A stretch of 6,058 nucleotides of DNA, taken from assembly GCA_020425835.1 (NCBI GenBank), contig JAGQRC010000252.1:1-6058 (forward strand), given 5' to 3'. The notes below the pieces were generated by a model. It was not told the origin of the DNA. It saw only the letters and a program-made list of their open reading frames with translations, and made no database searches. This DNA is from Planctomycetota bacterium (lineage in GTDB: Bacteria > Planctomycetota > UBA8108 > UBA1146 > JAJFFE01). Both the position numbers and the translations under genes were made by a program. Of the stretch, positions 1 to 6,040 are shown in pieces. Numbering within the stretch: the stretch's first letter is position 1; every line of letters begins with the position of its first letter.

Positions 1-201
1 CTTCGGGCAGTGATCGGCTCGCGCACATGGATTGGGTTCCGCTGTCCGTGTCCGGGAACCGGCCAGCTGCAGGGACAGTCGAAGAGGACCGGGCGCGCGC
101 ACCGCGATTCGCGCGAGACGCGGGCTGGCGACCCGATCTGGCCCCCGCTACTCTGCTCGCTTCCCTGGACCCCGAACCCCCTCGGACCCCCGGCGCTCCA
201 C

Positions 202-1548
202 TTGGCCAAAGACTCGTTCGATCTTCGGTTTCGCCCTCAACCCGCAGAGCTCGCGGAGCGCCCCCCTCGCGCCATCCTCCTGAAGGCGCTGCAACCGGAC
301 GATCCCTCGCTCCTCTACCCCGAGATCGGTCCGTTCGACGAGATCGAGTCCTTGGCCAGGACCGCGGGGCTCGAAGTGGTCGGACGGGTGTCGCAGAAGC
401 GGCCGAAGCCCCATCCCGGAACGTACGTCGGCAAGGGAAAGGTGGAGGAAGCGGGCGAACTCGCAGACCGATTGGACGCCGCGGTGATCGTCGTCGACGA
501 TCCGATCAGTCCATCACAGGGCAAGAACCTCGAGGATCGAACCGAGCGACGCGTCATCGACCGCGCCGAATTGATCATGGACATCTTCGCCACCCGGGCC
601 CGCACGCATCAGGCGAAGCTCCAGGTCGAACTCGCCCAGCTCCGTTACTCGCAGTCGCGCCTGACTCGCATGTGGACCCACCTGTCCCGGTTCGAGGGGG
701 GCATCGGGATGCGCGGCCCGGGGGAAACGCAGCTCGAGACCGACCGCAGGATCATTCGACGGAAGATCGGGCTGCTCAAGGAGAGGCTCGCGGAGATCGA
801 GCGTCAGCACTCGACGCAGAACAAGGCGCGGGAGCTCGCCTACAAGGTCGCCCTCGTCGGCTACACGAACGCCGGGAAGTCGACGCTGATGCGAAGGCTG
901 ACCCAGACGGACGTGCTCGTCGAGAACCGGCTGTTCTCGACGCTCGACACCAGCACACGCCGCTGGGACCTCGCAACGACGCGCGACGTGATCCTGTCCG
1001 ACACCGTCGGCTTCATTCGGAAGCTCCCGCACGCCCTGGTCGCCTCGTTCCACGCCACATTGGCCGAGGCGCGCGAGGCCGACCTGCTGCTCCACGTGGT
1101 CGACGCCAGCTCACCGCGCGCGGAGTCGGACATCGAGATCGTCGAGGAGACGCTCGAGTCGGTCGGATGCGGGGACAACCACCGGATCTTCATCTTCAAC
1201 AAGGTCGACCGAGTCGGTGACGAACGGCGCATCGACGTGCAGCATCTGCTCGCTCGACACGACGAGAGCATCGCCGTCAGCGCGATCGAAGGGCATGGGG
1301 TCGACCGACTCCGGAGCTTCGTCATCGCCGAAGTCGAGGCGACCGAGGCGCGGTGCGAGTTCTCGCTCCCGACGAACCGAGGAGACCTCGCCCATCAGAT
1401 CCGTCTCCTCGGGAAGATCGAAGAAGAGCGGTTCGAGACGGACCGCATCCTCCTGCGAGTTCGGTTGACCCCGGAGGCGAGGGACCGCTGCCAACAACTG
1501 CTCGCTCGCGCCGGCCTGAGCAGCTCGATGGACGGAACCGGCTGCTAA
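202..1548 (+). CDS. hflX: GTPase HflX (ribosome-splitting / ribosome-rescue GTPase)
   Basis: HflX is a cytoplasmic translation-factor-like GTPase that binds 50S/70S ribosomes and, in studied bacteria, splits stalled ribosomes under stress. Numbering from the TTG at 202 (448 aa; E. coli HflX is about 426), the N-terminal HflX domain begins near residue 24 (RAILLKAL) and contains the glycine-rich signature GGIGMRGPGETQLE at 166-179. The GTPase domain follows: G1 GYTNAGKST (220-228), G3 DTVGF (267-271), G4 NKVD (333-336) and G5-like SAIEG (360-364). All nucleotide-binding motifs are intact. A short C-terminal domain ends at TAA 1546-1548. The start is uncertain. TTG 202 is the only ATG/GTG/TTG codon in frame between GTG 10 and the conserved domain, but it has no clear Shine-Dalgarno, and the frame stays open to the window edge. 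Residues from GTG 10 (64 extra, rich in Trp, Cys, Pro, Arg) match nothing I know in HflX. The family call is very secure; the 5' end is not. Confidence 0.95.
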   Translation: MAKDSFDLRFRPQPAELAERPPRAILLKALQPDDPSLLYPEIGPFDEIESLARTAGLEVVGRVSQKRPKPHPGTYVGKGKVEEAGELADRLDAAVIVVDDPISPSQGKNLEDRTERRVIDRAELIMDIFATRARTHQAKLQVELAQLRYSQSRLTRMWTHLSRFEGGIGMRGPGETQLETDRRIIRRKIGLLKERLAEIERQHSTQNKARELAYKVALVGYTNAGKSTLMRRLTQTDVLVENRLFSTLDTSTRRWDLATTRDVILSDTVGFIRKLPHALVASFHATLAEAREADLLLHVVDASSPRAESDIEIVEETLESVGCGDNHRIFIFNKVDRVGDERRIDVQHLLARHDESIAVSAIEGHGVDRLRSFVIAEVEATEARCEFSLPTNRGDLAHQIRLLGKIEEERFETDRILLRVRLTPEARDRCQQLLARAGLSSSMDGTGC

Positions 1549-1965: not shown

Positions 1966-4900
1966 ATGGGGCATCCGCTCAAGAACCGCTCATTCCTGGC
2001 GCTCACCATCACGCAATGCCTGGGTGCGTTCAACGACAACGTCTATCGACAGTTCATCCTGCTGCTCGCCGTCGGCATCGAGATTCCGTGGCTCGCCGGT
2101 CTGGACCCTCAATCCCTCGCGCTGGCCTGTTTCGCGGCGCCCTTCGTGATCTTCGCCCTGTTGGCCGGCTCGCTCGCCGACCGTTACTCGAAGCGCACGA
2201 TCATCGTCGCGATGAAGGTCTTCGAGATCGTCGCCATGTCCTTGGCCATGCTCGCGTTCGCCCTCCATCCGTGGATCGGCGGTGAGACAGGTTTCAACGC
2301 GGCGGTGATCGCCTCGCTGGCGGTGCTGTTCATCATGGGGACCCAGAGCGCGCTCTTCGGACCGTCGAAGTACGGTGCGATCCCGGAGATCGTCGAAGAG
2401 TCCCAGATGACCCGAGCCAATGGCATCATCAGCATGACCACGAACATGGGTATCGTGTTCGGCGCGGTGGTGGCCGGCGGCCTGACCGAGTTCCTGCGCG
2501 AGCACCACCTCCCGCACTACGTCTCCGGCTACTTCCTGATCGGCATCGCGGTCCTCGGTTGGATCGCGTCGTTGTTCATCCGCAAGCTCCCCCCGGCCGA
2601 CCCGCAGTGCCCGCTGAGGACGAACCTGCTGACCGTACCGGGGCACGCCGTCCAGGAGGCGAAGTTCATCGCCCGGGACCGAGACCTTCTCGCGGTGATC
2701 CTCGCGGAGGGCTGGTTCTTCCTGGTGAGCTCGGTCGCGCTCGCCGTGTTCAACACCTACGGCCAATCGGTGCTCGGGTACGGGGATCGAGCCGGTTCGG
2801 CGCTGATCGCGTGGACCGGGATCGGCATCGGCGTCGGCAGTCTCCTCGCGACCTGGCTCTCTCGCGGACGGCTCGAGCTCGGTCTCGTCGTGTGGGGGGC
2901 GATCGGGATGTCCGCGAGCTTCCTCGCACTGTTCTGGATCGAGGATCGCACCGCGGCCAAGATCGCGACGTTCATCGCCGGGGGCTTCGGCGGGTTGTAC
3001 ATCGTTCCGGTGACGACCTTCCTCCAAGAACGACCCGAGGCCAACGAGAAGGGTCGGGTCCTCGGTGCCGCGGAGCTGAGCACGTTCTCGTTCATCTTCC
3101 TCGCGGCCGGAGTGTTCGCGGGGCTCGACATCCTGACCAAGCAGTTGTCCGGGCCGCTCGGGGTCGAGGCGCCCCGCCTCCTCGCGATCGGGCTCGCACT
3201 GCTGATGGCCGGTGGGGTCATGGCGTTGGCGCTGTTCGCGCCCATCTTCCTCCAACGCGCGATCCTCGCGGCGATCGGGACGTTCGCCTATCGGATCCGC
3301 GTGCACGGGGAGGAGAACCTCCCACTGCGAGGCGGAGCGCTCCTCGTTCCGAACCACATCTCCTACGTCGACCCCTTCTTCGTCGCGTACGGCAGCCCCC
3401 GGGTTCCGCGGTTCATCATGCACCGCTGGTTCCTGAACGTCCCGTTCGTCGGGTGGTTCACGCGACGGGTCAACGTCATCCCGATCTCCGCCGAGGATGG
3501 ACCGCGCGCGTTGGTCCGCGCCCTCGATCTCGCGGCCGAACACGCGCGCGAAGGTCATCTCGTCGCGATCTTCCCGGAGGGATCCATCACGCGGACCGGG
3601 AACCTCCTCCCGTTCTCGAAGGGCCTCGAGAAGATCGCGCGCAAGGCACAGGTTCCCATCGTGCCGGTCTACCTCGATCGCGTCTGGGGAAGCCTGTTCA
3701 GCTTCCATCGCGGTCGCTTCTTCTGGAAGAAGCCGAGCGGCGTCCCTTATCAGGCTTCGGTCAACTACGGAGCTCCACTCCCGCCCGACACTCCGGTCGA
3801 AGTGGTCCGACAGAAGATCCAGGAGCTCAGCGCGGATGCACTCGACCGACGAAAAGGATTCGGAGAGACCCTCGCCACCCGGTTCCTCCGACACGCCCGC
3901 CGCCATCCCCGGCGGTTCTGCATGGTCGACACCTCGAAGACCGAGCTGTCGTACCGCCGGACGTTGATCTCGGTGCTCGCTCTCCGATCCATCTTGAAGG
4001 ACCGGCTACGGGACCAAGACCGCGTCGGCGTGTTGCTCCCCAACGGCAACGGCGGCGCACTGGTCAACATCGCGCTCGCGGTGCTGGGAAAGACATCCGT
4101 CAACCTCAACTACACGGCGGGCGAGGACTCCTATCGGTCGGCGATCGACCAGTGCGAGCTGAGGACCATCATCACCTCGCCGCGTTTCCTCGAGAAGCTC
4201 GGCATGGATCCAGATCCGCGCCATCTCCACGTCGAGGATCTCCTGCAGGAGGTCACGACCGGAGTGAAGATCCGCGCGACGTTGCTGGCGCTCCTCCCCG
4301 GGTTCCTGCTCCAGCGACTCCCGGACGTTCCGCGGGATCCGGACCAGGACGCGACGATCATCTTCTCGAGCGGATCGACGGGGATGCCGAAAGGGGTACG
4401 CCTCACCCATCACAACATCCTGTCGAACGTGCGCAGTCTCGAGCAGGTCTTCGATCCGATCCCCAGCGACCGAATCGTCGCCGTTCTCCCGTTCTTCCAC
4501 TCGTTCGGCTACACCGCCACCGTATGGCTGCCCTTCGTGACCGGATTCGGGGCGATCTACCACTTCAGCCCGATGGACGCGAAGAAGATCGCGGAGCTGA
4601 CGCGGGTCTACCGCGGAACGATCCTGATCTCGACGCCGACCTTCTATCAGAGCTACCTGCGTCGGTTCGAGCCGGAGGACATCGCCACCGTTCGGCTCTC
4701 CGTCTCCGGAGCGGAGCAACTCAAGAGCTCTCTGCTCGAGCAGTGGCAGGACAAGTTCCACCAGCCGATCTTCCAGGGCTACGGTTGCACGGAGCTGTCC
4801 CCGGGCGTGTCGCTCAATCTGCCCGACGTCGAGCACGGTGACGTCCGGCACATCGCCCACAAGCCCGGCACGATCGGGCATCCGATTCCCGGCGTCGCGG

Positions 4901-5460
4901 TCAAGGTGGTGGACGCCGAGTCGTTCGAGGACCTCTCCGTCGGCGAGGAGGGGATGCTGCTGGTGCGCGGCCCGAACGTCATGGCCGGCTACCTCGGACA
5001 ACCGGAGAAGACGGCCGAGGTGAAACGGGACGGTTGGTACGTGACGGGTGACGTCGCGAAGCTCGACCGCGATGGATTCGTCACGATCACGGGTCGACTC
5101 TCCCGGTTCTCCAAGATCGGGGGCGAGATGGTGCCGCACCTCCGCGTCGAAGAGATGATCCAGCGGGTCATCGATGAACGACAAGCGTGCAGCATCGAGG
5201 CCCGCGAAGCGGGCGAGTGTGCCGAGGTCGCGGTGACGTCGGTGCCGGACACCGACAAGGGGGAGCGACTCGTCGTCCTCGTGAGTCGGGTCACCGTTCC
5301 GACCGACGAGATCATCGAGGCGCTGCGCGACAGCGGGCTGCCGAAGCTCTGGATCCCGCGGGCCGACTCGTTCCTCGAGGTCGAGAGCCTTCCGAAGCTC
5401 GGCAGTGGCAAGCTCGACCTGAAAGCCATCGGCGAGCTGGCCACGCAGCGCATCGCATGA
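1966..5460 (+). CDS. Trifunctional LplT-Aas fusion: lysophospholipid transporter / 2-acyl-GPE acyltransferase / acyl-ACP synthetase
   Basis: This 1164-aa inner-membrane protein fuses what E. coli encodes as adjacent lplT (397 aa) and aas (719 aa). Residues about 1-428 are an MFS transporter with about 12 hydrophobic segments, the FNDN motif (22-25) and MFS motif A GSLADRYSKR (68-77); LplT flips lyso-PE inward. Residues about 433-630 are a PlsC/LPLAT domain with the catalytic HX4D motif (H464, D469 in NHISYVD) and FPEGS (536-540), which transfers acyl groups to the lysolipid. Residues about 640-1164 are an ANL adenylating domain: P-loop SSGSTGMPKG (801-810), YGCTE (939-943), TGD (1027-1029), R1044, Aas-like KIGGEMV (1050-1056) and C-terminal lysine K1149 in LGSGKLD. 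It activates fatty acid, in Aas as acyl-AMP then acyl-ACP. All catalytic residues I can check are present. ATG 1966 is the only suitable start; its Shine-Dalgarno is weak and distant. Fused homologues of similar length are known, so the fusion itself is not new. Substrate specificity (PE versus another lipid) is inferred. Confidence 0.93.
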   Translation: MGHPLKNRSFLALTITQCLGAFNDNVYRQFILLLAVGIEIPWLAGLDPQSLALACFAAPFVIFALLAGSLADRYSKRTIIVAMKVFEIVAMSLAMLAFALHPWIGGETGFNAAVIASLAVLFIMGTQSALFGPSKYGAIPEIVEESQMTRANGIISMTTNMGIVFGAVVAGGLTEFLREHHLPHYVSGYFLIGIAVLGWIASLFIRKLPPADPQCPLRTNLLTVPGHAVQEAKFIARDRDLLAVILAEGWFFLVSSVALAVFNTYGQSVLGYGDRAGSALIAWTGIGIGVGSLLATWLSRGRLELGLVVWGAIGMSASFLALFWIEDRTAAKIATFIAGGFGGLYIVPVTTFLQERPEANEKGRVLGAAELSTFSFIFLAAGVFAGLDILTKQLSGPLGVEAPRLLAIGLALLMAGGVMALALFAPIFLQRAILAAIGTFAYRIRVHGEENLPLRGGALLVPNHISYVDPFFVAYGSPRVPRFIMHRWFLNVPFVGWFTRRVNVIPISAEDGPRALVRALDLAAEHAREGHLVAIFPEGSITRTGNLLPFSKGLEKIARKAQVPIVPVYLDRVWGSLFSFHRGRFFWKKPSGVPYQASVNYGAPLPPDTPVEVVRQKIQELSADALDRRKGFGETLATRFLRHARRHPRRFCMVDTSKTELSYRRTLISVLALRSILKDRLRDQDRVGVLLPNGNGGALVNIALAVLGKTSVNLNYTAGEDSYRSAIDQCELRTIITSPRFLEKLGMDPDPRHLHVEDLLQEVTTGVKIRATLLALLPGFLLQRLPDVPRDPDQDATIIFSSGSTGMPKGVRLTHHNILSNVRSLEQVFDPIPSDRIVAVLPFFHSFGYTATVWLPFVTGFGAIYHFSPMDAKKIAELTRVYRGTILISTPTFYQSYLRRFEPEDIATVRLSVSGAEQLKSSLLEQWQDKFHQPIFQGYGCTELSPGVSLNLPDVEHGDVRHIAHKPGTIGHPIPGVAVKVVDAESFEDLSVGEEGMLLVRGPNVMAGYLGQPEKTAEVKRDGWYVTGDVAKLDRDGFVTITGRLSRFSKIGGEMVPHLRVEEMIQRVIDERQACSIEAREAGECAEVAVTSVPDTDKGERLVVLVSRVTVPTDEIIEALRDSGLPKLWIPRADSFLEVESLPKLGSGKLDLKAIGELATQRIA

Positions 5461-5500: not shown

Positions 5501-5558
5501 CGTCGCGAACATCCGCCCCGTGTCGTCGGGGTGATCCCTGGGTTCCCTCTCGCGGCTT

Positions 5559-5562
5559 GGAG
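5559..5562 (+). promoter_or_regulatory. Ribosome binding site that decides the BMC start
   Basis: GGAG lies 7 nt before GTG 5570, an ideal spacing. The product then begins MYRRALGIIET, aligned with the N-terminus of canonical BMC-H proteins. This argues against the longer in-frame starts at GTG 5531 and TTG 5471. Confidence 0.75.
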
Positions 5563-5569
5563 CTCCCCC

Positions 5570-6040
5570 GTGTACCGACGCGCGCTCGGAATCATCGAAA
5601 CCGTGGGGCTCGTCGGTTCGGTGGAAGCGGCGGACGCCATGACCAAGTGTGCGGACGTCGAGCTGGTCGGCCGGGAGGAGATCGGCGGCGGACTGTTCGC
5701 GGTCGCGATACGGGGCGACGTCGGTTCCGTGCGCGCGGCGCTCGAGTCGGGAAGCCTGCACGCGAAGGCGGTGGGAGAGCTGCACGGGGTTCTCCTCATT
5801 CCGCGCCCCTCGGATGACCTCGACACGATCCTCACCGGCTTCTCGGGCTCCCCTCCGGAACCCGACCTCCCCCGCATCTCGGACCTTCCCTCGCTCAATG
5901 TCCATCAGCTGCGATCGCTGGCGCGTCGACTCCCGCACTTCCCGCTCAAGGGGCGCGAGATCTCCATGGCGCACCGTGAGGAGCTGCTGGACCGCTTGAA
6001 GGAAGCTCTGGAAGCGGAGGATGCCCCGAACGGCTCCTGA
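5570..6040 (+). CDS. BMC-H shell protein with C-terminal Rho_N/SAP-like extension
   Basis: The protein has 156 aa from GTG 5570. Residues about 5-88 are a single BMC domain (PF00936), the hexameric tile of bacterial microcompartment shells: ALGIIETVGLVGSVEAADAM, then VELVGREEIGGGLFAVAIRGDVG, ending IPRPSDD. It aligns with PduA without gaps, so PduA numbering applies. The edge residues K26 and R79 that knit hexamers together are kept, while N29 is Asp here. In the pore loop, K37 is Glu and S40 is Gly (EIGGG), giving a more acidic rim. Canonical BMC-H proteins end near residue 90-100. This one continues with a Pro-rich linker (about 92-103) and a helical module at about 105-147 (LNVHQLRSLARRL, a KGREIS turn, then AHREELLDRLKEAL) that resembles Rho_N/SAP helix-extended-helix domains, usually nucleic-acid- or protein-binding. 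The domain match for the tail is by eye and less certain than BMC. No encapsulated enzyme or other shell gene lies in view, so the compartment's pathway cannot be assigned. It follows lplT-aas by 109 nt on the same strand. Confidence 0.93.
   Translation: MYRRALGIIETVGLVGSVEAADAMTKCADVELVGREEIGGGLFAVAIRGDVGSVRAALESGSLHAKAVGELHGVLLIPRPSDDLDTILTGFSGSPPEPDLPRISDLPSLNVHQLRSLARRLPHFPLKGREISMAHREELLDRLKEALEAEDAPNGS

Follow-up and report, generated by a model that had tools for sequence, protein, structure and literature searches.

The window analysed here is the whole 6,058-nucleotide stretch of contig JAGQRC010000252.1 from a Planctomycetota bacterium, and the element under study is a forward-strand gene for a hexameric bacterial microcompartment (BMC) shell protein, or BMC-H, that carries a small C-terminal domain (the "tail") resembling Rho_N and SAP modules. 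It is the only shell gene in the window and lies beside non-BMC genes. The first-pass annotation of this DNA had placed the open reading frame (ORF) correctly, and the features of the gene are as follows.

5570..6040, + strand: tailed BMC-H gene; GTG start at 5570, stop at 6038-6040, 156 amino acids (translation)
5557..5562, + strand: Shine-Dalgarno-like TTGGAG read in the sequence (GGAG at 5559-5562), 7 bases upstream of the GTG
5582..5809, + strand: BMC domain (PF00936), residues 5-80, Pfam E 3.6e-23
5810..5875, + strand: proline-rich linker, residues 81-102, with the lowest model confidence, between the two domains
5876..6022, + strand: Rho_N/SAP-like tail domain, residues about 103-151, from AlphaFold2 models, structure matches and conservation

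The GTG at 5570 corresponds to the start position of most homologues in the protein alignment. The protein contains a single BMC domain, scoring 81.7 bits against a Pfam cut-off of 24.5, and both K26 and R79, which are reported to control hexagonal tiling in PduA (PMC4139245), align at the same numbers as in PduA. Residues 90-102 are rich in proline, in agreement with the earlier description of a BMC domain followed by a Pro-rich linker, and the AlphaFold2 monomer model gives the linker block-mean confidences of 80 and 63. Linkers of relatives range from 15 to 342 residues. The long linkers of 33 of 93 tailed proteins (for example L138, L127 and L116) contain a short stretch that looks helical and reads [ST]TIxRL+xEAL or closely resembles it; it is present in the shell-less genomes described below as well.

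The tail is predicted by AlphaFold2, as a monomer, to be a folded four-helix module (helices at residues 103-108, 111-120, 129-133 and 136-151) with block confidence (predicted local distance difference test) of 88-97 across the core, rather than the disordered extension that the first-pass annotation had named as evidence against its proposal. Structure matches of the predicted model show the helix-extended-loop-helix fold of the Rho N-terminus. In a 44-row alignment V111, L114, R115, A118, R119, G128, R129 and L139 are invariant; in a 76-tail alignment V111, R115, R119, G128 and R129 (positions 15, 19, 23, 32 and 33 in A3 numbering) never vary, R136 (A3 position 40) is always R or K, and the conserved charged residues are mostly basic. 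Tail net charge was computed with a pattern that skipped 2 of the 76 tails. The profile search suggested for the tail gave a divided answer. The window tail itself yielded no Rho_N match and only 12.0 bits for SAP (PF02037), whose cut-off of 23.9 was reached neither here nor by the best relative seen (19.0 bits, L164). Among the 76 tails, 24 had a Rho_N match at E up to 10, the best at E 7.8e-06, and a sole relative, L165, exceeded the Pfam cut-off for Rho_N (25.1 versus 24.9 bits). A search of PDB sequences with the tail profile gave chance-level matches only. The match to Rho_N (PF07498) of Rho itself has 8% sequence identity and differs in that the domain here is C-terminal on a shell tile; no further domain of Rho was matched. 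The predicted structure and the profile matches of relatives support the Rho_N/SAP-like nature claimed for the tail.

Other BMC proteins with the same tail were found and their loci compared, as had been proposed. With the window protein counted, the tail is present on 27 of the 45 proteins returned by a protein search, and four of these 27 (P0005, P0006, P0012 and P0020) are named as Planctomycetota or Planctomycetes by their source. Because it occurs on 27 of 45 proteins, has invariant residues and is predicted to fold, the tail is a real domain and not a chance extension. The 18 tail-less proteins comprise 15 of 93 to 106 residues (P0032-P0046), a tandem BMC protein (P0030) and two on contigs of ~0.6 kb (P0028 and P0031). 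P0024-P0027 and P0029 form a second tailed BMC-H group that differs at the N-terminus and has a linker rich in Gly, Pro and Glu, and a Melioribacteraceae locus (L001) encodes the same tail behind a longer linker. A BMC domain was in frame with the tail in 90 of the 93 tail ORFs first scored; two of the remaining three (G063 and G277) are at contig ends, and in the third (G209) the BMC domain is hardly recognisable. This last protein, at locus L136, scores 11.9 bits for BMC against the cut-off of 24.5; its gene still adjoins ybbR, and its genome gave no match to PF00936 or PF03319.

Searches with the tail alone, which saw only proteins of similar length, gave 1 and 13 proteins, every one of which contains a BMC domain. 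A tail shared with cargo enzymes was considered and set aside, as only BMC proteins were returned, long enzymes being outside the reach of these length-limited searches. An apparent fusion to another protein in G357 was likewise rejected; its frame is broken by unread bases and Pfam found nothing in it. A scan of IMG/VR gave no relative, and 45 other BMC-bearing genomes used as a control (mostly Lachnospiraceae and other Clostridia; 45 of 79 loci) had no credible tail, a single match of 15 positions (E 0.004), whose frame is interrupted by a stop, being taken as chance.

Across 247 genomes sampled from the phylum to which G001 (the source of locus L001) belongs, the tail accompanies the pentamer gene almost one for one: 51 genomes have the tail, 49 a pentamer, 48 both, 4 only one and 195 neither. 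Two weak tail matches (G129 and G244; E 0.004 and 0.005) were dropped from these counts, and with both the tail is in 53 of 247; the Fisher tests made in this analysis ignore relatedness. Exactly three pentamer matches were found in 39 of the 49 pentamer-bearing genomes, and in G125, whose matches are all on one 3.74 Mb contig, the BMC-H pair, a pentamer pair, a third pentamer and a BMC-T gene lie at four separate places. The tailed gene of relatives is usually the second of the BMC-H pair, and the Melioribacteraceae-type gene order is spoT, ruvX, bmcH, tailed bmcH, ybbR, tmk, S41 protease. Microcompartments of the FRAG type, a catalogued type of unknown function from Ignavibacteriae and Planctomycetes, are described with shell genes at up to six places and a pentamer triplet (PMC8217296), and the scattered shell genes and pentamer triplet of the relatives, judged by sequence, fit this type. 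The main-text account of FRAG mentions neither a C-terminal hexamer tail nor hexamer genes in pentamer-less genomes (PMC8217296). Among the papers listed by literature searches on microcompartments, none was recognised as describing a Rho_N/SAP-like tail on a BMC-H. The earlier suggestion of an under-described system is supported for the tail; it missed that the shell genes of relatives fit a catalogued type.

The link between tail and pentamer is looser, in both directions, in the order of G149. Of its 164 genomes, 137 have the tail and 132 pentamers, with 117 having both, 20 the tail only, 15 pentamers only and 12 neither. The 15 pentamer-bearing genomes without a tail match (of 132) include G250, G291, G293 and G297. 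Of the 16 genomes in the family sample that have no pentamer, 6 had neither the tail nor any BMC match. To compare the two classes, the tailed ORFs of 163 genomes from the order, family and phylum samples were scored with one profile built from homologues; five tails whose frame ends at the edge of the stretch (G270, G063, G277, G360 and G366) were set aside. Among pentamer-bearing genomes, 132 of 135 uncut tailed ORFs have a BMC score of at least 72.1 bits, and the other three (G357, G381 and G418) have only part of the BMC domain in frame. Among pentamer-less genomes (19 ORFs from the order of G149 plus that of G209), 16 of 20 uncut ORFs score 70.8 bits or less for BMC, or have no score at all. 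The other four are in the normal range (G264 81.0, G279 86.9, G417 101.3 and G377 101.8 bits), and those of G279, G417 and G377 resemble ordinary genes whose assemblies are incomplete. Tail scores are similar in the two classes, at 52.2 to 69.7 bits (median 60.25) without pentamers and 26.1 to 73.5 bits (median 60.0) with them. The tailed gene of G237 lies on a 3.57 Mb contig, and this genome, given as 3.6 Mb, has no pentamer match and only a diverged BMC-H pair. G133, G285, G360 and G361 each have a diverged pair, between eight and ten BMC matches in total and one pentamer match, and were treated as a separate class; G363 has normal BMC-H pieces on another contig too.

The tiling residues differ between these classes. 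Of the 135 tailed proteins from pentamer-bearing genomes, 101 have R at position 79 and 21 have Q, and all 130 plain BMC-H partners have R. In pentamer-less genomes R is found at this position in 2 of 20 tailed proteins (G377 and G417) and 4 of 12 plain partners (G279, G377, G394 and G417). K26 is present in 132 of 132 readable tailed proteins and 130 of 130 plain partners with pentamers, versus 14 of 20 and 8 of 12 without. In all eight shell-less neighbourhoods that were read, ruvX precedes and ybbR follows the tailed gene, with extra DNA between in G262. Pairwise Nei-Gojobori counts of nonsynonymous (dN) and synonymous (dS) change for ten pairs, in some of which dS is saturated, show purifying selection on the tailed protein in the pairs tested. 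The shell-less pair G237/G299 has a dN of 0.136 against a dS of 1.12 for BMC, 0.089 against 0.74 for the tail and 0.38 against 2.0 for the linker. Constraint is tighter in the shell-bearing pair G265/G284 (dN/dS values of 0.020/1.2 for BMC and 0.024/0.92 for the tail), and in G133/G285 the tail is the less conserved of the two domains (0.098/0.53, against 0.039/1.2 for BMC). The shell-less genomes fall at four separate places on a tree from one FastTree run on neighbouring genes of 42 genomes, several inner nodes of which are weakly supported. That the tail is kept where no pentamer was found may point to a second function beyond the organelle.

In BMC-H proteins, segments that extend either terminus can be located on the concave face of the hexamer (PMC5534457), which is reported to be the shell exterior (PMC10514305), and by this known geometry the tails should therefore face the cytosol. 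An inward-facing tail, which the first-pass annotation had entertained, becomes less likely on the same grounds (PMC5534457, PMC10514305).

Our preferred explanation, to which we give close to an even chance, is that the window protein is a BMC-H of a FRAG-like microcompartment whose outward tail binds nucleic acid through its conserved arginines and so tethers hexamers to nucleoid DNA or to RNA. The protein would be a putative subunit of such a shell, its type being read from relatives; the C-terminal domain would hang by a flexible linker on the outer, cytosolic hexamer face, with up to six tails per hexamer if this is homo-hexameric. The three invariant arginines and the one always-basic position are putative nucleic-acid contacts, a role suggested by conserved basic residues and net charge, and the simplest reading would be avid, low-specificity binding of DNA or RNA. 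The organelle would in this way be tethered to the nucleoid or to RNA, and a free hexamer may gain a role of its own that does not depend on a closed shell. An extended form of this explanation, which we regard as possible and place below the first, is that the tailed BMC-H is bifunctional, serving as both tile and multivalent nucleic-acid binder, and that in several lineages it persists outside the organelle, lacking R79 and pentamers and often accompanied by a plain BMC-H partner, as an independent complex that binds nucleic acid and whose gene lies between ruvX and ybbR. If the tail does bind nucleic acid, it would connect a metabolic organelle physically with the nucleoid or with RNA. A specialist would be most surprised by the retention outside the shell, and the shell-less genomes pose a directly testable question, namely what a shell protein does without a shell.

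An older example of a BMC-H whose C-terminal domain is similar to domains that bind nucleic acid is EutK, which carries a helix-turn-helix (PF16365). The fold of this domain suggests a link to nucleic acid, and a 2018 review states that its role had not been identified (PMC5821096). The EutK model NF012010 matches the window protein over residues 4-109 only (63.1 bits against a cut-off of 218), and the C-terminal domain is a different one; moreover, the EutK gene is in the eut operon, whereas tailed BMC-H genes are among housekeeping genes, and EutK is reported as a monomer (PMC12058022). The first-pass annotation, which stated that standard BMC-H proteins lack such modules, missed EutK. PduK likewise has a long extension behind its BMC domain (PMC12058022), which ends in a Cys-rich, probable Fe-S motif, unlike the window tail, which has no cysteine.

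The main rival to nucleic-acid binding is docking of a protein partner, in which the outward tail would serve as an adaptor for a cytosolic positioning or scaffolding protein, much as McdB links carboxysomes with McdA. Protein binding is known for LEM-type helix-extended-loop-helix domains, the recurrent linker motif, found also in shell-less genomes, would suit protein docking, and the non-basic A3 positions V15, L18, A22, G32 and I35 are conserved as well as the arginines. We nevertheless consider an adaptor unlikely, as the conserved charged residues are mostly basic and no partner gene is obvious: in the order with the best sampling the tailed gene is surrounded by housekeeping genes, and the neighbours in the window are different ones.

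Appreciably less probable is an autogenous regulator, in which tailed hexamers not yet assembled would bind the shell genes, dispersed as these are, or their RNA, and thereby control the stoichiometry of the shell. With the shell genes of G125 split over four places, control in trans would be of use, and the Rho_N-like fold would suit this role, but retention of the tail where other shell genes were not found would be left unexplained. At a slightly lower level still we place a luminal cargo recruiter, with tails facing inward to hold enzymes; a disordered linker with a small helical element resembles the logic of encapsulation peptides (PMC12339742), yet terminal extensions are described on the concave, outer side (PMC5534457, PMC10514305), the tail is kept where no pentamer was found, and no non-BMC protein with the tail appeared in the length-limited searches. 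That the gene is a decaying relic in shell-less genomes, and so uninformative on function, is very improbable, for although BMC domains are diverged there and dN/dS of the G237/G299 BMC domain is above most shell-bearing pairs computed, dN is far below dS in both domains, tail scores are undiminished, the reading frames are uninterrupted and the order of genes is conserved.

Upstream of the tailed gene, the window contains two further features.

1966..5460, + strand: fusion of MFS, acyltransferase and AMP-binding domains, 1164 amino acids (Pfam); same-strand upstream neighbour
10..1548, + strand: hflX-like GTPase frame (Pfam GTP-bdg_N, GTP-bdg_M and MMR_HSR1), start position provisional

The fusion resembles a fused LplT-Aas phospholipid repair system, and the stop of its gene is separated from the tailed BMC-H gene by 109 bases. 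At other shell loci of relatives, the pentamer pair is between a sigma-70-type factor and a metalloenzyme-superfamily gene (L232:7387-10591 and L237:7050-9917), near what read as rpoA/rpsD-type genes. The metalloenzyme-superfamily gene is presumably a phosphopentomutase, and these neighbours are a possible hint at nucleoside-sugar metabolism for the FRAG compartment. Only a few genes separate the third pentamer gene from that of a class II aldolase (PF00596; L233:4033-8731), a family described in other microcompartment types too (PMC8217296), and the BMC-T gene adjoins an RnfC/PduS-like flavoprotein in L234:8058-11169 and L083, with a SpoIIE-type phosphatase also present in L234.
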